Positions 49,971-62,376 of a stretch of 64,000 bases of DNA are shown here, in pieces. Position 1 is the stretch's first letter, and each line of letters starts with the position of its first letter. The notes beneath the pieces were generated by a model. That model worked only from the letters and a program-made list of their open reading frames with translations, was not told where the DNA came from and searched no databases. The position numbers and the translations under genes are program-made. This DNA comes from an uncultured Spirochaetales bacterium (GTDB lineage: Bacteria; Spirochaetota; Spirochaetia; Sphaerochaetales; Sphaerochaetaceae). The DNA is taken from positions 1 to 64,000 of the forward strand of contig CALXKL010000010.1 in the NCBI GenBank assembly GCA_944388965.1, written 5' to 3'.

Positions 49971-50075
49971 GCCAAGTATGAATCATCGCACAAACATGCG
50001 CTCTTGTTGAATAAGACAGGACAGGGGAATTGAGGTTAAAACGGAGGAAATCAGGCTGTCACCATGCTGTTCTTC

Positions 50076-50204
50076 TGGTGTAGCACTGGTGTAGCACTGG
50101 TGTAGCACTGGTGTAGCATCTGGTGTAGCATCTGGTGTAGCATCTGGTGTAGCATCTGGTGTAGCATCTGGTGTAGCATCTGGTGTAGCATCTGGTGTAG
50201 CATC
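50076..50204. repeat. Minisatellite of 11- and 12-base units
   Basis: Three perfect 11-base copies of TGGTGTAGCAC (50076-50108) are followed by eight perfect 12-base copies of TGGTGTAGCATC (50109-50204). The two unit types differ by one inserted base and one substitution. The array lies 106 bases upstream of the CLC gene, between it and the TPR-like gene. Confidence 0.95.
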
Positions 50205-50242
50205 GCTCATTTCCCTCTGATGTTCCGCATTTTTCCATTGAT

Positions 50243-50281
50243 CATGAAAAGGCAAGGGACCCTGTTCCCAAGGCCCCTTGC
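50243..50281 (-). terminator. Terminator after the TPR-like gene
   Basis: GCAAGGG (50252-50258) and CCCTTGC (50275-50281) form a stem; on the minus strand it is followed by CCTTTTC. It lies 28 bases after the stop of the TPR-like gene. Confidence 0.7.
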
Positions 50282-50308
50282 AGTATTCCATCCATTATTC
50301 CAGGTCGA

Positions 50309-53099: not shown

Positions 53100-53831
53100 A
53101 TGAGACGTGCACTTGCGTCTGTTCTTGTTCTGCTTTTCATTTCGTCCGCGCTGATGGCATACCAGCTGTCGCCCCTGAACGTGACCTACGCACCGACGGG
53201 TGCCGACAGCGCCAAGGTGTACACGATCACCAACGACTCCGACTCGCCGATCGCCATCGAGGTCACAGCCGAACAGAGGATAATCGACCTTGACGGCAAC
53301 GAGGTCAACCAGGACGGCTCCGCGTATTTCTCGATCCAGCCGTCAAGGATGATCATCCCCGCAGACACCACCCAGCTTGTGAGGGTGCAGTACCGCGGCC
53401 CTTCGACCGTGACCCGCGAACTCTCGTTCAGAATCGTCGCGGAGCAGATCCCGATGCCGCGTGGTGCGCAGGAGGCCGAGTCCGGGCAGATGATCAGCTT
53501 CCTCTTCGTGTATTCGACAAGCGCATACGTCAAGCCTTCCAGAATCGTCGAGAGCGTGTCGACATCCGTCTCGAGGAATGATGAAGGAAAGCTCGAGGTC
53601 ATCCTGGAGAACACCGGAAGCGTCCATCAGATGCTCAACAGCCTGTCCATCACGTTGCATGGCGATGACGGCAGTTCCTATGTGCTCACCGAGGACGAGC
53701 TTGCTCCGGTCTCCGGCAAGAACCTGCTCACCAACAGCCGTCTGAGGACCGTGATCGGGATTCCTGCATCGCTTAGAGGGGCATCCGTCATCACGGCGGA
53801 TGTCAGCTACGACTTCTCGTACTCGAACTGA
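53100..53831 (+). CDS. Periplasmic pilus-assembly chaperone (PapD-like)
   Basis: The 243-residue product has a signal peptide (MRRALASVLVLLFISSALMA) and two immunoglobulin-like domains. The first ends with the family's RVQYRGPSTVTRELSFRIV and AEQIPMPRG segments, which correspond to the chaperone G1 strand and the YRL-x-x-x-E-x-P linker of fimbrial chaperones. The second domain (about 125-243) is beta-rich. It should stabilise pilin subunits in the periplasm by donor-strand complementation and hand them to the usher encoded next. It is the first gene of the operon. Confidence 0.82.
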   Translation: MRRALASVLVLLFISSALMAYQLSPLNVTYAPTGADSAKVYTITNDSDSPIAIEVTAEQRIIDLDGNEVNQDGSAYFSIQPSRMIIPADTTQLVRVQYRGPSTVTRELSFRIVAEQIPMPRGAQEAESGQMISFLFVYSTSAYVKPSRIVESVSTSVSRNDEGKLEVILENTGSVHQMLNSLSITLHGDDGSSYVLTEDELAPVSGKNLLTNSRLRTVIGIPASLRGASVITADVSYDFSYSN

Positions 53832-53860: not shown

Positions 53861-56800
53861 ATGTCAGGGAAGGGAAGTAGGAGCAGGACTCCTGAGATTC
53901 TCATACTTATCTCATCTGCCGCGGCGTTCGTGCTGACCGTCGTGGCCTGTCTGTGTGCAGACGAAGTCGGCAGAGCGGGTACCGCCGTCATGGCCATATC
54001 GGCCCTGGCCTGTGCGCTGGTGTCGGCGAACATGATGGTACATGCTGGAGGATCTGCTGCCGGAGGACTGCTGGTCACTGTCCTGCTGATCTGCATGCTG
54101 GCATTCGCCTTCTCATACATACTCCATTATCTCTTTACCCGACCAGGCGAGGAAGCCATCCCTGCAGTGGAAGAATCGAAGGTTGCGGAAGATGCCGTAC
54201 CTGCGGATGCACAGCGGGAGCAGGAATCCACTGCATTGGATACCCGTGAAGAAGAGAGTATCTCCACTGCAACGGAGGACATGACAGAGGAAACGTCAAC
54301 GGAACAGGAGACGATTTTGCAGGACATGGATGGAGAAGACATACATGTCCTGGCAGAGTCCGGAGAAATCGATACGCTCCCTGGTTACGGAGAAGACGCA
54401 CAAGAGACATCCGGGCAGGAGCCTCAAGCCGGACTCTGTGAAGATGCCGTTCCTCCAACCAAGTCTGAAGACGAAGAACAGCCCGGCGCAATCGTCGCCG
54501 ATGTTCCCGATGCACCATCAGGACTCTTTGCCACTACCATGGTTGAAGGCGAAGAAGATGAAGAACAGCCAACGGCTTTGGAAGAAGATGATGTCGAGGA
54601 CTTCGGCATATACGTCGACCCATATGCCGACGATGATTTCTGGGCGAGCTTCTATATCGCAGGCCAGGATGAACTCGTGCTGGAGGACGGCATCTATTAC
54701 ATGTCGCTCTACATAAACGACGTCAACACAGGAGTCATATCCACTCTGATGGAGGGTGGAATCGCATCGCTGTCCACCTCCGAGCTTGAAGACCACACCT
54801 ATGGCACCCTTACGGACGAGGCCAGAAGCCGTCTTTTCAACGAGAGGGGAAGCTACATAACGCTTGACGAGCTGGAGCAGGTCGGTGTCCAGACCAGACT
54901 CGACAGCACTGCATACGAGGTGTATCTGACCTTCGACCCACATGACATGCCGGTTCAGATCCTCAGCATCAGGGGCAGCTCCAGAAGGATGGTCAACAGG
55001 CCGATCTCCGGTGGAATCGAGGTCGATCCGGCCGTATTCACGTTGATATCCCGCCACAGCCTGTCAATGGGATTCGACGACCTCAGACGGGATGACGTGA
55101 TGTCCGGATTCTGGGGCTACTTCTCCTCTACCAACAGTGGACGGTTGTACAATGTCGACTTCGACTTCTCCTTCGGCTTCCACTTCACGGCGGACTCGTT
55201 CGACTTCTCGAATCTTACATACAGCTTCCATCGCGACTTCCCGGATGCCATGATGCGTCTGCAGTGGGGCATGGTCGGCACATCGCTCCTGTCCCCGTCG
55301 GGAACGGGAATCGGAATACGATTCGACAAGAGCCTGTCCTATTCCAACGACAGGACGTCCAACCGCAGCCATACGGAGCAGCTCGTCGTTGTCGAGAAGA
55401 CATCCGATGTCGAGGTGTTCAACGAAGGACGCTCGATTTTCAAGAGGACGCTGTCTGCCGGAATGTACAGACTGCAGGACTTCGTTCTCTATTCCGGTGC
55501 AAACAGAATCCTAATCCGCATCTCGCCTCTTGACGGCTCGCCTGTCAGGGAGATCGAGTTCGATGTCCTCTATTCCTCCTCCCTGCTTGCACCTGGAGAG
55601 GCGTATTACGGCGCCTCCCTTGCCTTCAGCAGAAGACTGACGGACAACAGGGTGGAAAAGTCAGATTCCGCATTCTCGCTTCCGCTGTGGAACGACAGGA
55701 GAATAGACTACGACTTCGCAGACGTCGTCCTGAGCGCATACGTCCGAGCCGGTCTTACGGAGAGGACGACGATGAATGCGACAATTGCATTGCAGAACAG
55801 GCCAACAGAGCTTTCCCTGTGGGGTCCGAACGCCTCTCTTGCAATGGAGTTCACAAACGTGAACATCCTTGGCAATTCACGTCTCTCGCTCACTCTCGCC
55901 GAGAGAAGCGACGAGAGTGGCGACTTCACGTTGCCCACGCTGAATGCGAACATCGGCCATCAGGTATCCACGGACATGAGATGGCTTAGTTCGCTCAGCT
56001 TCGGAGCATCCTGGACCAACCCGTCCAACTGGAACTTCGAGAACTCGAACTTCATCTCGTTCAACGCCGGAGTCGGAGGCGGTTTCGGTATCGTCGGCTG
56101 GAGTCTTTCGGCCTTCGGCGGCTTCGATATAAGCGATCCTACGATCTGGTCATGGAGTACATCTGCAAGTGTCAGTGTGAATCTGGGCAGACATGTCTAT
56201 GTGTCCGGCTCTCTCAATGCAAGCGGTACGAACGACATCAGACCTGAGATCTCCGGAAGAGTCAGCGCCAGCCTGAGATTCGGAGGTGTTAGTACAAGCG
56301 CCAGTACTGATTTTGAGAACGTTTCGCTTAGGTTCTCCGCCGGTGGAGGACGTCATTCGCTGTCAGGCAGCATCAATGGTTCCAACATTCTCGATGTGGA
56401 TACCTGGAACATGAACGCATCCTATTCCTATGGTGGAAGGAGAATCGCGGCAGGTGTGAACATGAACTCGTCCCAGCTCTTCGACAGAGTGGGGCTCTCT
56501 GCGAATCTGTCGACCTCCACGGTCTTTGCCGACGGTCTGTTCGCAATCGCATCCAGCATCCCGTCCAATTTCCTGCTGGTCAGCCAGAAGGGGGCGCTCA
56601 AAGGCAATGACCTGTCCATAGGCACTCCCGGAACCTCTTCGTTCGCCGAGACGCCGACCACGTTCGGTACGGCCTTGTACACGGGACTGCCGAGCTATGG
56701 AAACACGAGTCTCATGGTATACAGCTCCGGAAGCGACCAGTTCTCGGTGGCCCAGTCGCTTGCCGTCAATCTCACAGCCTCGGATATGAAGGGATATGTT

Positions 56801-57235
56801 CTCAGGATGGAGGCGGAGGACAGCTTCTCCGCTTCAGGCATGGTGTACCTGCCTGATGGAAGCCTGTGGCTCAATGGATCTTCTCCACTCTATTCGGTCA
56901 TGAATGATGGCAATGGGAATGTGACGACGACAGCGACCGATTCATATATCTTCACGGACAGCGATGGTCGTTTCGTCGTCTCCCAGCTGCCTGCCGGAAC
57001 ATATGGATTCGATGTCCCGTATGAAGGCGGATGGCTGCTATACATCTTCCCGGTCAGTGATGATCCGGATGCCTTCTCCATGCTCCAGATGATGGGAGAG
57101 CCGGCAGAATCCGATTCATCGACATCGCTTCCCGAACCCTACATGGAATCCTACGTCTATGAAATGGACGAGATCATATCCTCCCAGCAGTTCTTCGAGC
57201 TGCTTTATCCCGAAGCGATGGAGGTGGCCGTATGA
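53861..57235 (+). CDS. Usher-like outer-membrane protein with N-terminal membrane domain
   Basis: The product is 1,124 residues. Residues 264-380 resemble the usher N-domain (GIYYMSLYINDVNTG, RMVNRPISGGIEVDP); then comes a long beta-barrel region with the usher plug-like segment DVEVFNEGRSIFKRTL, RLQDFVLYSGANRILI and LLAPGEAYYGASLAFSRRL, and a C-terminal FTDSDGRFVVSQLPAGTYGF typical of usher ends. What is odd is the start: instead of a signal peptide it has three transmembrane helices (about 12-33, 40-62, 64-92) and an acidic, low-complexity linker (about 96-258). A fused frame is unbroken, so this is a real fusion. It overlaps the next gene by four bases. Confidence 0.78.
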   Translation: MSGKGSRSRTPEILILISSAAAFVLTVVACLCADEVGRAGTAVMAISALACALVSANMMVHAGGSAAGGLLVTVLLICMLAFAFSYILHYLFTRPGEEAIPAVEESKVAEDAVPADAQREQESTALDTREEESISTATEDMTEETSTEQETILQDMDGEDIHVLAESGEIDTLPGYGEDAQETSGQEPQAGLCEDAVPPTKSEDEEQPGAIVADVPDAPSGLFATTMVEGEEDEEQPTALEEDDVEDFGIYVDPYADDDFWASFYIAGQDELVLEDGIYYMSLYINDVNTGVISTLMEGGIASLSTSELEDHTYGTLTDEARSRLFNERGSYITLDELEQVGVQTRLDSTAYEVYLTFDPHDMPVQILSIRGSSRRMVNRPISGGIEVDPAVFTLISRHSLSMGFDDLRRDDVMSGFWGYFSSTNSGRLYNVDFDFSFGFHFTADSFDFSNLTYSFHRDFPDAMMRLQWGMVGTSLLSPSGTGIGIRFDKSLSYSNDRTSNRSHTEQLVVVEKTSDVEVFNEGRSIFKRTLSAGMYRLQDFVLYSGANRILIRISPLDGSPVREIEFDVLYSSSLLAPGEAYYGASLAFSRRLTDNRVEKSDSAFSLPLWNDRRIDYDFADVVLSAYVRAGLTERTTMNATIALQNRPTELSLWGPNASLAMEFTNVNILGNSRLSLTLAERSDESGDFTLPTLNANIGHQVSTDMRWLSSLSFGASWTNPSNWNFENSNFISFNAGVGGGFGIVGWSLSAFGGFDISDPTIWSWSTSASVSVNLGRHVYVSGSLNASGTNDIRPEISGRVSASLRFGGVSTSASTDFENVSLRFSAGGGRHSLSGSINGSNILDVDTWNMNASYSYGGRRIAAGVNMNSSQLFDRVGLSANLSTSTVFADGLFAIASSIPSNFLLVSQKGALKGNDLSIGTPGTSSFAETPTTFGTALYTGLPSYGNTSLMVYSSGSDQFSVAQSLAVNLTASDMKGYVLRMEAEDSFSASGMVYLPDGSLWLNGSSPLYSVMNDGNGNVTTTATDSYIFTDSDGRFVVSQLPAGTYGFDVPYEGGWLLYIFPVSDDPDAFSMLQMMGEPAESDSSTSLPEPYMESYVYEMDEIISSQQFFELLYPEAMEVAV

Positions 57236-57942
57236 AGCTTAAGCAGAAAGTCATCAGCCTTTCCATTCTTTTTACCTGCATGTTCATGACCGGAGTTTCC
57301 GCTGCTGACAGTCAGGAGCTGGTGATCAAGGCATATAAGATTGCTAGAAGCGATCAAAAAGGCATCACGGAATTCGTCGTCACGGATGCCCTTGCTGATT
57401 TCGATGACCTGGACAAGATTTCGGATACCAGGAATGAAATTATCCTGGACAGGCATATCGGTACATATCTTGGTCGTATCGAGAAGCTTGATGACAAGGC
57501 GTTTTCCGAGCATATCGTGTTCTCTGTCAGAATAGCAGGAGCTGGAACTTCTTCGTATACTGGTACTTCCTCTTTGGAGGAAGATGATACTGACCAATAT
57601 CAGGTGACAATGACCTTTTCACCTTTTGTCTATGGAGATAATGGTGTGACATCTACCTTGGATGCATGCTATCAGCTTGGAAACATCACAGGCATATTCG
57701 AAGCAAACAGCTCTTCGACCCATGGTTCTGAAACGATTACTATGACCGAAGGAACTGATTATGTTGCCAATTCAGGCTCCTTGTCATTCAACTGGCAAGT
57801 CACTACGAATTCCGGTTCCTTATCACAATGGACGGTGCGTGCTGCTGTCGCCATGACAATCGGTGAAGATAGTTACAACAACTGTACCCAATACGGCAAA
57901 CATTCCGCGACCGTTACTGTCAAGTTGGAGGCCGTCAGATGA
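57232..57942 (+). CDS. Secreted pilin-like subunit 1
   Basis: The 236-residue product begins with a signal peptide (MKLKQKVISLSILFTCMFMT, cleaved near VSAA). It is beta-rich with many Ser, Thr and Gly and ends in HSATVTVKLEAVR, like a pilin's final strand. It has two cysteines (ACYQLG and YNNCTQ) that could form a disulphide. Its start overlaps the usher stop (ATGA) and its end overlaps the next gene, so assembly with the usher is implied. It does not share the Trp core motif of the later subunits. Confidence 0.6.
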   Translation: MKLKQKVISLSILFTCMFMTGVSAADSQELVIKAYKIARSDQKGITEFVVTDALADFDDLDKISDTRNEIILDRHIGTYLGRIEKLDDKAFSEHIVFSVRIAGAGTSSYTGTSSLEEDDTDQYQVTMTFSPFVYGDNGVTSTLDACYQLGNITGIFEANSSSTHGSETITMTEGTDYVANSGSLSFNWQVTTNSGSLSQWTVRAAVAMTIGEDSYNNCTQYGKHSATVTVKLEAVR

Positions 57943-58595
57943 GAAAAATCCATCTGATCATTCTTCTTATCTTTGTCCTTGCAAATGTCAATGCAGCGTA
58001 CGTGCATGAGACCACCAGGCATTTTGACCTCCAGGCAGGATATGGCGCAACCTCGTCAATCAACATCACTCCGATTCCGGCCCAGAGCCAGTCATATGTC
58101 GTCGGAATGCCTTTCAGTATCGAAGATCCGATGGTCACCGACTCAACGGGATTTGGGCGCCAGATTGCTACATTCACTTTGCTAAGCAATGTCGATTTCA
58201 ACATAATTATCGAACCTGCTGCGTCATACGATGGGAAAATGCGTCATGTGGATGCGAAAGGAGAGCCTGTAATGAATGAAGATGGCTCATACGAGCATGA
58301 AGGTCTGGATTACATCCTTGAATTCCGGTATCTGCTTGGCTACGTGGGTGAAGGCAATACGCAAGATTCTCGTGAAGGTGAATTTACATATGAATCCAGA
58401 ATTGTAACTAAAACTATTTCGGATTTGACCATGGGATACACCGGAGAGGGAAACGCTTTCATCGGTACGGCCAATGGAGCCATCTTCTTCAGATTTGACG
58501 ATAAAAGCTCAGGCATGATCGAAAACCCAAATAACACGCTTCCAGCTGGTGACTACATGGCTCATGTGAAGATAACTCTGGAGGACAAGAAATGA
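57939..58595 (+). CDS. Secreted pilin-like subunit 2
   Basis: The 218-residue product has a signal peptide (MRKIHLIILLIFVLANVNA) and a beta-rich mature part. It ends with TLPAGDYMAHVKITLEDKK, the G-x-Y-x-A-x-[VL] strand ending seen across this gene cluster. A VTDSTG segment and two long charged loops lie in the middle. Both ends overlap neighbouring genes by four bases. The role within the fibre is unknown. Confidence 0.6.
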   Translation: MRKIHLIILLIFVLANVNAAYVHETTRHFDLQAGYGATSSINITPIPAQSQSYVVGMPFSIEDPMVTDSTGFGRQIATFTLLSNVDFNIIIEPAASYDGKMRHVDAKGEPVMNEDGSYEHEGLDYILEFRYLLGYVGEGNTQDSREGEFTYESRIVTKTISDLTMGYTGEGNAFIGTANGAIFFRFDDKSSGMIENPNNTLPAGDYMAHVKITLEDKK

Positions 58596-59863
58596 CCAGA
58601 AGAACCATATTCGTTTTCCTCCTTCTCCTGTTCATCTGCTTCAATTTGATGGCGGTCGCCCATGTCGCCATAGCTCCGGAAACCGGTGCCTATGGAGTCA
58701 ATATGGCCAGCTCTAAATATCGTGGAAACGAACACAGCGGAAACAATTTCTCGTGGATCAAAGGTACGGGTGAACCTGATAATCCGACATTCGATCAGCT
58801 TACTGGTGTACAAAGCAAACAATGGTATCTTGACCAGCATATCATCGGTCTTGGTGGTGTTTATGATCTCGAGTCGTCTCAGAAAAACTCGAATACGAGA
58901 TATACGGTCACGGCATACTGTGCCAATGGATTCAACTTCAAGTCTCAGAGCAATCCGAACATCGTAAGACCTTTCGAAATACTGATTGTCGCAAGATATG
59001 GAGAAGAGAAAACGGACCGTGTAGAAGCACTCAAGTCTTCCGGACAGTCTGAGACATTCTATTATAAGGGTGCTAAGGACTATCTCTGGTTCGACCTTGT
59101 GCTTGCTCTGCCCCTTGATGAAGATCCGGTACCTGGCTCGAATTACATCAAGGCAGACGGTCAGACTTACTCCCTCGTACAGACAAATGATTATACCGCT
59201 CTGGTGACCATCAACGTGACGGCTTGGGATGAGAATGGAGTCATCGGCACGGATTCGATCAGCATACCGTTTTCCGGGTATTTCAATGGGCAAACCGAAG
59301 GAAAGGGTGATGACAGACTGAGCCTGATGTTCACTCCTAATGCGAATGCCGGCAATCTTAATATCCAGACCCAGCATTCTCTTCCGATTCCGGTTGGCAA
59401 CATCGACTTCATGCTCGATGCCGAATATACGGAAAGGAAAGACGGTTGGGGAAACGATATCTCCGATAGATATGATCCTGGCTATGTGAAGATATTCTTC
59501 TCGTCCAGAAATGAACCCGATGATGCAAATACCCAGCCTTTCCGGTTCGTCCATAGTTCAGTAGGTGATTCTGATCCACTGACGAATTACAATTCCATCG
59601 GATACGAGATAGTCGTTAGCGGTTCGAATTCAAGTACTTCCTTTTCCGGAGACGATCATCTGGTCAATGGTGATGTCGAGAATGCAATCATTCCGGAAAA
59701 GGTGACAAGTAATACTTCGCATCAAGGCGCACGTGAATTCTTCGAGTATTCCGGGACAATCAACGTCATCATCGATGAACCGACGACGATTATGCAAGAA
59801 GGAGATTATCACGACACAGTATATGTCCATGTCGTTACGGATCATGACAAGGCGGGAAAATGA
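58592..59863 (+). CDS. Large secreted pilin-like protein, possible tip adhesin
   Basis: At 423 residues it is the largest protein of the subunit cluster. It has a signal peptide (MTRRTIFVFLLLLFICFNLM) and a long mature region rich in Asn, Ser, Gly and Thr, with the closing IMQEGDYHDTVYVHVV matching the terminal strand of the others. Tip adhesins in chaperone-usher fibres are two-domain and larger than the shaft pilins, so an adhesin role is a reasonable guess, not shown. It overlaps its neighbours by four bases at each end. Confidence 0.55.
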   Translation: MTRRTIFVFLLLLFICFNLMAVAHVAIAPETGAYGVNMASSKYRGNEHSGNNFSWIKGTGEPDNPTFDQLTGVQSKQWYLDQHIIGLGGVYDLESSQKNSNTRYTVTAYCANGFNFKSQSNPNIVRPFEILIVARYGEEKTDRVEALKSSGQSETFYYKGAKDYLWFDLVLALPLDEDPVPGSNYIKADGQTYSLVQTNDYTALVTINVTAWDENGVIGTDSISIPFSGYFNGQTEGKGDDRLSLMFTPNANAGNLNIQTQHSLPIPVGNIDFMLDAEYTERKDGWGNDISDRYDPGYVKIFFSSRNEPDDANTQPFRFVHSSVGDSDPLTNYNSIGYEIVVSGSNSSTSFSGDDHLVNGDVENAIIPEKVTSNTSHQGAREFFEYSGTINVIIDEPTTIMQEGDYHDTVYVHVVTDHDKAGK

Positions 59864-59874
59864 GGAGGCAAGGA

Positions 59875-60450
59875 ATGAGAAAAAGCATAATGGCAGTCAT
59901 TATTATCCTACTCTTTATTTCGAATGCCTACGCTGCCGAGGAAACGAAGTCTCTAGCCGTATCAACCATTGTACCGGTTGACTATGGAGTTGTGTTCCCT
60001 GCAGACGGACTGAGACTGGACCGGCTGTATCTTGCATTGGAGGCTGCTGGTGGAGACAGGAACTATCTAACGACAGACGATACGACAATCCATACCGGTC
60101 TCATAACGGATCATCCGGATGGAATGGTGTTCCACTTCCTCTTCTACGGGAACCTGGCAACAACATATCAGGTGATGATAACTGCGGATGCTGGAAGCGG
60201 ACTTGTTCTCCAGAGTGGGGACGACACGTTCACCATACCTGTGGATGTCTCCTTCCAGGAGCCGGAGGAGGAGAACGACAACGTCGTCCTGGAGATTCTC
60301 GATGGGAACACGGCGATGCTCCAGGTGGATACGGCCGGAGCCGTGAGCGCACTTGACGTGCTTGAGCTGAGAGTGAAGTGGGAGGATTCTCCTGAAATCA
60401 TAGCGGGAGATTACATGGCGGATCTGAGTCTTGAACTCACGACGATGTGA
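59875..60450 (+). CDS. Secreted pilin-like subunit 4
   Basis: The 191-residue product has a signal peptide (MRKSIMAVIIILLFISNAYA) and a beta-rich mature part ending in IIAGDYMADLSLELTTM, the cluster's common final strand. It has FHFLFYGNLATTYQVMI where other members have the Trp motif. ATG 59875 was chosen because GAGGAGG lies just upstream, whereas the ATG at 59860 has none. Confidence 0.6.
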   Translation: MRKSIMAVIIILLFISNAYAAEETKSLAVSTIVPVDYGVVFPADGLRLDRLYLALEAAGGDRNYLTTDDTTIHTGLITDHPDGMVFHFLFYGNLATTYQVMITADAGSGLVLQSGDDTFTIPVDVSFQEPEEENDNVVLEILDGNTAMLQVDTAGAVSALDVLELRVKWEDSPEIIAGDYMADLSLELTTM

Positions 60451-60469
60451 CGAGGAGGAGCTGGTGATT

Positions 60470-61051
60470 ATGAAAAGACTTGTCTTCTCTATGATTGTGA
60501 TGACAGTAGGCCTGCTTGCCTGTTGGGCTTCAGAACCTCTGGAGTCCAAGACTTTAGAGGTGGCGCTGGATCTGAGTTCTGAGTCGACGATCACATGGTA
60601 TGATTTCGGCTTCTCGTCAACTCAGGTCGGCAGCGGGAAGGAGGAGACTCCTGTCGCTTATGAGCCGACGGAAATCGATCATATAGCGCTTGTCCTGGAA
60701 TCAGGTGCAGATGCTGACAGAATTGCCGAGAACACTGACGGCTCCCTATGGGTGTATTGGCATATCACATCAGGATCCGGGCTGGAGATTTCCATTGCTG
60801 GTGATGGTGATATGAAGAAGGAGGTTCCAGAATCCGAGGGGGAGAAAATCGGTTGGAACATCGCAATCGATTCTGCAGATGGAAAGGGCAGTGGGGAAAC
60901 GCAAGTCGTATTCACACATGACCCTTCTGAAAACAGTGTAGGTGCAGATGGATCCAAAAAAATTCTTCTGGCTACAGAAGATCTCACCGGGCTGACTCTT
61001 TCGCCTGGTGAGTATACTGCGAATCTAAAACTTTCAATTGTCAAAAAATGA
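60470..61051 (+). CDS. Secreted pilin-like subunit 5
   Basis: The 193-residue product has a signal peptide (MKRLVFSMIVMTVGLLACWA). The mature part contains the shared core WVYWHITSGSGLEISI and ends with LSPGEYTANLKLSIVKK. The signal region contains a Cys at residue 18, which could be a lipidation site, but the context (LLACWA) is not a perfect lipobox. The ATG at 60470 has GAGGAGGAG upstream. It begins the series of clearly related paralogues. Confidence 0.65.
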   Translation: MKRLVFSMIVMTVGLLACWASEPLESKTLEVALDLSSESTITWYDFGFSSTQVGSGKEETPVAYEPTEIDHIALVLESGADADRIAENTDGSLWVYWHITSGSGLEISIAGDGDMKKEVPESEGEKIGWNIAIDSADGKGSGETQVVFTHDPSENSVGADGSKKILLATEDLTGLTLSPGEYTANLKLSIVKK

Positions 61052-61062
61052 GGAGAAATGAT

Positions 61063-61746
61063 ATGAAGAGAACTCTTTGTCTAATGGCTCTCGTCTTGCT
61101 GATCGTTTCGGCATTGTCTGCAGGTGAGGAAACCACAAGCCCTTCCTATAGCGGTGGTATAGATAATGCCAATGCCAAAGCTACTACTCAGGTTTCGTTG
61201 AATATCGGAGGCGGAGATGCAAGTGCTTCTAAGATCGAACTGTACTTCTTGAAGGCTCAGGATGAGAACCAGAGTGCTACGTCTCAAGCTCCAGACAATA
61301 CGAAATTGCAACCTTCTGTTGCTCTTGCCTTCAATTCCACCCCGAATGTTGCCGATAATACGGCTGACGGCTCTGGCGTCTATGCGTGGTGGAGAGTGCT
61401 GTATGGTGGAAATCTCTATATCAAGCTTGAGATTGATAAAGCGCTTTCGAAAGATGAAGAGACCGAGACTATCGACTGGGAAGCTGCAGCGACGGTTTTA
61501 TCTCCCGCTACGGATGCCTCTGAGGGGGATGGTCTGAGCACCACTACTGTTAAGAAGACAGTCTATTCAAAGGTAGGAAGTGGAAATAAGATTGAAACCT
61601 TCGCTACTCATGTTGGAACGAAAGGCGTTCTGTCGTTTGGGCAGGCCAGGATCGATATCAAGACGGATGCAAACGAGGATTTTTCCAAGATTCCTGCCGG
61701 TACATATTCTGCGAATCTTACCCTGATTTGCACAACAGAAAACTGA
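61063..61746 (+). CDS. Secreted pilin-like subunit 6
   Basis: The 227-residue product has a signal peptide (MKRTLCLMALVLLIVSALSA), the core motif YAWWRVLYGGNLYIKLEI, and the ending KIPAGTYSANLTLICTTEN. A middle loop is long and rich in Ser and Thr. The start at 61063 has AGGAGA six bases upstream. It is related to the flanking subunits. Confidence 0.68.
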   Translation: MKRTLCLMALVLLIVSALSAGEETTSPSYSGGIDNANAKATTQVSLNIGGGDASASKIELYFLKAQDENQSATSQAPDNTKLQPSVALAFNSTPNVADNTADGSGVYAWWRVLYGGNLYIKLEIDKALSKDEETETIDWEAAATVLSPATDASEGDGLSTTTVKKTVYSKVGSGNKIETFATHVGTKGVLSFGQARIDIKTDANEDFSKIPAGTYSANLTLICTTEN

Positions 61747-61779
61747 ACAATGGAAGATAGAAAATAGGAGAAAAAGAAA

Positions 61780-62376
61780 ATGAAGAAGTTGATTATTGTT
61801 GTTTTGATTGCGGCGGTTTCTGTCGTAAGCATTTTTGCTGCTACACAGGGTAGTGCTTCAGGTACAGTCGGGGATAATCCGGAAGCTTATACTGTCGTAA
61901 CACTTGACTTGACTGATGGTGGTAAGTCGTATGTTGAACTGTGGTTTGACAAAGAAGCGTCTACCAGTATCCCAGATACTCCTAAGGCTACGGTCAATCT
62001 TGGATTTTCTGACGACGCCACTAGTGCAAGCAATTCTGGAGATCCTCTTTACGCTTGCTGGAATATAGTCTCTGGAGATTCAATTGACGTTGAGCTTTAT
62101 CTGACAGGTCCGCTTACAGCGAATGGTAAAGATATCGAATGGACTGCAACCTGGAAAAATGATAGTAGTGCAAATGTCACGATTTCATCTAATGAAGTTA
62201 CTGGTGATTCTCTAGAAGGTTCGGATGTACTTAAATCATATACTGATACAACAGGTAATCCACTTAAGAAGACTGATAGCAAACAGATAACAATTTCTAC
62301 TACCACTATTGATTATACGGATATCGTGCCCGGTACATATACGGCCAATCTGTATCTGAGATGTAAGACTAACTGA
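61780..62376 (+). CDS. Secreted pilin-like subunit 7
   Basis: The 198-residue product has a signal peptide (MKKLIIVVLIAAVSVVSIFA), the core YACWNIVSGDSIDVELYLTG and the ending IVPGTYTANLYLRCKTN. It contains two cysteines, one in the core motif (YACW) and one at the final strand (RCKT), which may pair. Low-complexity Ser-Asp-Gly stretches and a more AT-rich codon choice set this gene apart from the housekeeping genes earlier in the window. Confidence 0.68.
   Translation: MKKLIIVVLIAAVSVVSIFAATQGSASGTVGDNPEAYTVVTLDLTDGGKSYVELWFDKEASTSIPDTPKATVNLGFSDDATSASNSGDPLYACWNIVSGDSIDVELYLTGPLTANGKDIEWTATWKNDSSANVTISSNEVTGDSLEGSDVLKSYTDTTGNPLKKTDSKQITISTTTIDYTDIVPGTYTANLYLRCKTN

Follow-up and report, generated by a model that had tools for sequence, protein, structure and literature searches.

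Ushers are, in the textbook picture, outer-membrane machines that make no contact with the inner membrane, and known ushers begin with a signal peptide that is cleaved. One paper describes them as outer-membrane proteins that operate without external energy (PMC3960871), and another reports that TAM aids their assembly (PMC11014939). The closest architectural precedent for the protein described here is found in the Dma anti-sigma factors of Bacteroidota, in which an N-terminal anti-sigma domain that signals to a sigma factor is followed by a transmembrane helix, then by an extended, disordered segment that resembles a tether and, at the C-terminus, by a barrel (PMC13088901). In the titles and abstract openings of the open-access papers returned by our searches we find no description of an inner-membrane-anchored usher, and "Sphaerochaeta" and "usher" never occur together in one open-access paper.

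We analyze here a chaperone-usher locus of an uncultured member of the Sphaerochaetaceae, contained in a stretch of 64,000 nucleotides that we call the window. The usher resembles FimD and PapC in its 24-strand barrel, whose plug falls between strands 6 and 7, in having both N- and C-terminal domains, and in its pairing with a PapD-like chaperone gene. Unlike FimD and PapC, ushers of this family have one to seven helices and a disordered linker of 98 to 388 residues in place of the signal peptide, and the sequence of the window protein is too distant for Pfam to recognize. With the Dma proteins it shares the combination, within a single chain, of a helix, a lengthy disordered segment like a tether and a beta-barrel at the C-terminus (PMC13088901). 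It differs from them in its short cytoplasmic tail, in having an usher for a barrel and in lacking the anti-sigma domain, and the protein family is a different one. We consider it probable that the signal peptide of these ushers became a permanent inner-membrane anchor, and that the usher spans both membranes by way of a disordered leash. The features of the locus are collected in Table 1.

Table 1. Features of the usher locus in window coordinates; residue numbers are those of the usher protein.
Feature	Position	Strand	Basis
PapD-like periplasmic chaperone gene with signal peptide	53100..53831	+	PF00345 PapD_N, E 6.4e-7, exceeds the cut-off
Usher ORF with N-terminal membrane anchor and linker	53861..57235	+	1124 aa, single open frame
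Helix 1 (residues 10-31), preceded by a basic N-terminal tail predicted to face the cytoplasm	53888..53953	+	AlphaFold; hydrophobicity/charge scan
Helix 2 (residues 33-62)	53957..54046	+	AlphaFold; hydrophobicity scan
Helix 3 (residues 66-92)	54056..54136	+	AlphaFold; matches the single anchor helix of relatives by eye
Disordered acidic linker (residues 93-256)	54137..54628	+	pLDDT under 50; composition
Linker motif VPDAP (residues 215-219)	54503..54517	+	lies 43 residues ahead of the boundary with the usher
Conserved usher N-terminal tail DDDFWASFYI (residues 257-266)	54629..54658	+	F264 invariant in 46 sequences
Usher N-terminal domain (~268-371)	54662..54973	+	AlphaFold; PapC 7lhg_C alignment from model residue 268
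24-strand barrel (~393-890), plug (~507-571) between strands 6 and 7	55037..56530	+	AlphaFold; FimD/PapC pore match
C-terminal domains (~905-1065)	56573..57055	+	AlphaFold model, structural alignment
C-terminal tail with FFELLYP motif	57140..57229	+	F[WF]xx[LMF][YFH]P in 31/78 full-length family ushers
Seven putative pilus-subunit genes, most of which overlap or lie close together	57232..62376	+	ORFs; all acidic

The initial annotation, made from the sequence of the window, called this protein an usher, and the call is borne out by fold, by Pfam matches in relatives and by gene context. In the AlphaFold model of the window protein, built on 46 family sequences, the folded usher is confident from about residue 272 to 1115, and its best Foldseek match is FimD (3rfz_B, E 4.2e-30). 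A VIA-align comparison gives Z 19.3 over 624 residues for the FimD chain 9fw9_D, and nothing other than FimD and PapC chains scores above Z 13. Model residues 268-1090 align with residues 25-808 of PapC 7lhg_C (Z 17.7), and the barrel matches the PapC and FimD pores with Z 14-15. By our own count of the strands in the model, six precede the plug and eighteen follow it, which is also the arrangement in FimD.

At the sequence level there is much less to be seen. A Pfam scan of the window protein gives no match to PF00577; that model matches 8 of 34 relatives, with a best E of 2.3e-6, and across 392 genomes of the phylum the Pfam usher model has 8 matches. A profile of the usher part searched by sequence against the PDB found no usher, and it was fold comparison alone that found ushers. 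Because the fold matches FimD and PapC we regard the identity as settled, and the modeled structure identifies the protein as a true usher of the FimD/PapC type. We know of no motif like F[WF]xxLYP at the C-terminus of FimD.

The reading frame of the usher opens just four codons 5′ of the ATG, which rules out a longer start. The chaperone gene lies directly 5′ and ends 29 bases before the usher ATG, and this order, chaperone then usher, is found in 81 of the 84 in-family loci whose upstream DNA is long enough to show it. On the 3′ side lie seven ORFs for small, acidic, secreted-looking proteins, six of which (all except 60431-61051) were included in a Pfam scan and gave nothing above cut-off; we take these ORFs for putative pilus subunits from their position and a C-terminal pattern. 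The genome of the window has a second chaperone-usher gene pair (L002, G000:C11), whose usher has a single-helix anchor and an acidic linker.

The N-terminal part of the protein had been described as three hydrophobic helices followed by a stretch rich in Glu and Asp, and AlphaFold helices, disorder and composition agree with that description. The helices are modeled with low confidence (pLDDT about 50-63), and the linker (pLDDT 23-42 for residues 93-255) is unstructured. Counted over the 169 residues that follow the last helix by our boundary, the linker has 31% D+E and 3% K+R, with a net charge of -47. To the eye, helix 3 looks like the lone helix found in relatives from the genus (...LSYIhYLF...). 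The usher part was located correctly but placed a few residues late, near residue 264; the conserved tail DDDFWASFY starts at 257. By position, this tail corresponds to the mature N-terminus of ordinary ushers. In the linker, P216 of the VPDAP motif is nearly invariant in the alignment of the 46 sequences (A4). There are no known domains above cut-off in the N-terminal 260 residues of the window protein or in nine N-terminal regions scanned, and N-terminal regions have no sequence match in the PDB. We also considered that the first 92 residues might be a mobile module; in their own genome they match this gene itself and nothing else, which rejects the idea. Against 30 relatives the same 92 residues give weak matches only, the best with E 0.017.

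Is this architecture a peculiarity of one genome? Homologs are present in 71 of 150 related genomes (the window's own included), 67 of them belonging to the family and 4 lying outside. A further scan, over named genome contigs, gave 58 loci, the titles of which name Spirochaetales, Spirochaetaceae, Spirochaetia and Sphaerochaetaceae, including Sphaerochaeta, Pleomorphochaeta and Candidatus Aphodenecus, with one exception. The exception, L079 (JAHLFB010000141.1), is labeled Candidatus Phocaeicola faecipullorum (Bacteroidota) and has an usher of the Sphaerochaetaceae type with a similar linker; it is probably a mis-binned contig. A search of viral contigs gave nothing useful. For the comparison of N-termini we use a set of 86 distinct sequences from within the family, which leaves out the 5′-incomplete loci L018, L027, L028, L068, L079, L093, L104 and L123-L125, the duplicates between two locus sets, and the out-of-family L064-L067.

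All 86 have the same order of one or more helices, linker and usher, and we have seen no complete in-family usher that is missing the helix and linker. The initial annotation had proposed looking for the same fusion in related genomes and had named relatives lacking the N-terminal part as evidence against it; what we find is that the helix and linker are present throughout the family. It had also raised the prospect of a frameshift or sequencing error separating two genes. The window has one open frame, and an artefact of that kind, or one of mis-assembly, is excluded by a continuous ORF in many separate assemblies, among them the one-contig genomes G017, G037, G061 and G066 and that of Sphaerochaeta halotolerans 4-11 (L118). 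Some ushers (L106 / L028 and L068) are broken into two frames, in Sphaerochaeta sp. STF1_7 (351 + 763 aa) and in the one-contig genome G069. Such two-frame ushers are either sequencing errors or pseudogenes.

While the sequence of the linker is unconserved, its composition is conserved, with medians of 23% D+E, 4% K+R and 13% P. The median linker is 142 residues long, and the net charge is negative in every one of the 86. Proline reaches 28% of the linker, and some proline-rich Sphaerochaeta linkers have a net charge of just about -4 to -10. Of the 86 linkers, 55 contain the motif [IVA]P.[APEK]P, where 200 shuffles gave 23 on average and 32 at most; it is typically found 23-50 residues ahead of the usher. 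At L098 (CALXLI010000096.1) the N-terminal region is far larger: four or more helices are predicted, the linker has about 349 residues, and the usher begins at about residue 488. As an example of the simpler form in a named genome, the usher of S. halotolerans 4-11 has a single helix, modeled confidently at residues 2-31 (pLDDT blocks 58, 85, 80), then disorder over residues 33-145, and then the usher. With such a form in a named genome, work on these proteins need not depend on metagenome-assembled genomes.

As controls we use ushers from outside the family. A family profile run over the 392 phylum genomes matched 38, of which 28 are in-family and 10 outside, one of the latter (G109, L178) not being an usher. 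The helix and long linker are absent from the other families: 13 ushers from other spirochaete families (in 12 genomes) have 13-41 residues between the hydrophobic core and the first strand of the domain, and their starts are signal-peptide-like. In L174 and L176, a tail resembling DDFWASFY comes immediately after the signal peptide. Since the tail directly follows the signal peptide there, the linker of the Sphaerochaetaceae ushers sits between what was the signal peptide and the N-terminal tail of the usher. The idea that all outer-membrane proteins are tethered in these bacteria was rejected, as BamA, the one such protein checked, has an ordinary signal-peptide-like start.

The question is then whether the helix stays in the membrane. 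AlphaFold does not distinguish anchors from signal peptides. Ahead of the first helix, the tail (median 7 residues) is net positive in 82 of the 86 ushers, consistent with an N-terminus on the inside. An unlikely, but not negligible, reading is that the last (or single) helix is a long cleavable signal sequence, and that the linker is a free disordered tail or pro-region of an otherwise ordinary usher. Possible signal-peptidase sites can indeed be found in 28 to 49 of the 86 ushers by a crude rule, LSA|FLWT of Sphaerochaeta being an example. But the same rule finds such sites far more often in chaperones of the same loci: with Ala at -1, 28/86 usher helices vs. 72/83 chaperones; with Ala, Gly or Ser, 49/86 vs. 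74/83; and a stricter signal-peptidase rule gives 33/86 vs. 68/93. Moreover, many candidate sites in the ushers lie within the hydrophobic core. In the window protein the crude rule finds none, and the stricter rule flags an AFA inside helix 3. Cleavage after helix 1 would not free it, because helices 2 and 3 stay in the membrane, and throughout the multi-helix ushers only a cut after the last helix would release the protein. Finally, a free tail would have no need of a 98-residue floor, or of an odd number of helices between three and seven. Linkers that never fall below 98 residues have enough contour for crossing the periplasm.

A membrane attachment of another kind, in which a cysteine at the helix end would receive a lipid through the lipoprotein pathway and so keep the linker at the membrane, strikes us as very improbable. 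In 40 of 86 ushers a Cys does lie close to the outer end of the last helix (as in WTCF or YTCS), but a relaxed lipobox is present in only 4 of the 86 and absent from the region scanned around the last helix of the window protein, and lipidation leaves the multi-helix forms unexplained. We infer that the helices of the Sphaerochaetaceae ushers are not removed, which would give the protein a two-membrane topology.

The three helices of the window protein are real, but they are not the usual form. A simple predictor finds one helix in 60 of the 86 ushers and more than one in 26, and in a FastTree tree of 85 rows the 24 multi-helix rows form one clade (support 100) nested within single-helix members. 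The window usher falls inside this clade, and its same-genome paralog L002 is single-helix. On this tree, the single-helix form is ancestral, and extra helices arose once, usually in pairs. The word "fusion" in the initial annotation is misleading: helix and linker are native to the usher throughout the family, and the three-helix architecture is a later elaboration of one clade. Counted from hydrophobicity alone, with thresholds of at least 3.5, the helices are odd in number in 25 of the 26 multi-helix members (15 have three, 8 have five and 2 have seven); this result depends on the threshold, ranging from 12 to 25 of 26 over a parameter grid, and the exception, L074, has two helices at every setting. 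An odd number keeps the topology with the N-terminus inside and the linker outside, and additions in pairs leave the linker outside. We lean, by a little, towards a single-chain pilus platform spanning two membranes across the Sphaerochaetaceae, to which helix pairs (3, 5, 7) were repeatedly added in one lineage. If so, the added pairs suggest that selection acts on the membrane part, whether because it gives a mechanically stronger anchor or because a partner in the inner membrane docks there.

How could such a protein work? The Sec machinery would insert the helices while the basic N-terminus stays in the cytoplasm. Linker and usher would be exported, and BAM, perhaps with TAM, would fold the barrel into the outer membrane; the genome of the window has matches to both BamA and TamB. 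With its N-terminus remaining in the inner membrane, one polypeptide would then run across both membranes, its disordered leash of 98-388 residues running up to precisely the tail with which the usher N-terminal domain docks chaperones. The architecture has a parallel in TamB and TamA, where an inner-membrane signal anchor reaches an outer-membrane partner; unlike the usher, TAM consists of two proteins, and TamB is structured. The anchor as a substitute for a missing TAM is ruled out by the TamB match in the same genome. That match and the one to BamA are about 2 kb apart (G000:C5:149824-153215).

As for the leash itself, its most likely role would be to hold the platform, and hence the base of the pilus, to the inner membrane, and to keep the docking domain near the emerging subunits; we put forward this holding and placing role tentatively. 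Force would pass along so flexible a leash only once it is pulled taut. One alternative is a transducer like TonB, in which the helix contacts ExbB/ExbD and the acidic, proline-rich linker relays proton-motive energy to the usher. The basic tail, the one helix and the long Pro/Glu-rich periplasmic linker, with its proline of up to 28%, do resemble the layout of TonB, but the usher has no separate TonB C-terminal domain. ExbD (PF02472) is found neither in the genome of the window nor in 15 other genomes searched in the genus; it is present in 12 other genomes of the family. Furthermore, published fimbrial ushers need no external energy (PMC3960871), and we give this alternative next to no credence. 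Scarcely better is electrostatic fly-casting, in which the acidic linker would catch chaperone-subunit complexes and hand them to the N-terminal domain that its end adjoins at the docking tail: the would-be cargo is acidic too, at net -10 for the chaperone and -11 to -28 for each of the seven putative subunits, the median net charge over 80 chaperones of the set is -1.7 per 100 residues, and the weakly charged proline-rich linkers of some Sphaerochaeta would have little to cast with.

If the anchored usher holds up, proteins built as a helix, a disordered leash and a barrel would exist in a second kind besides the anti-sigma factors of Bacteroidota, and a pilus machine thought to belong to the outer membrane only would be physically coupled to the inner membrane. 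To our knowledge, it would be the first such case in a secretion or assembly machine. It would also raise new questions. How does BAM fold a barrel that is tied to the inner membrane by its N-terminus? Does tethering limit the number or placement of pili, and does it help in holding the spirochaete envelope together?

Elsewhere in the window, a 12-bp tandem repeat at 50074-50204 (eleven copies, 98% matches) encodes ATPD repeats in a small ORF on the minus strand (49983-50291).
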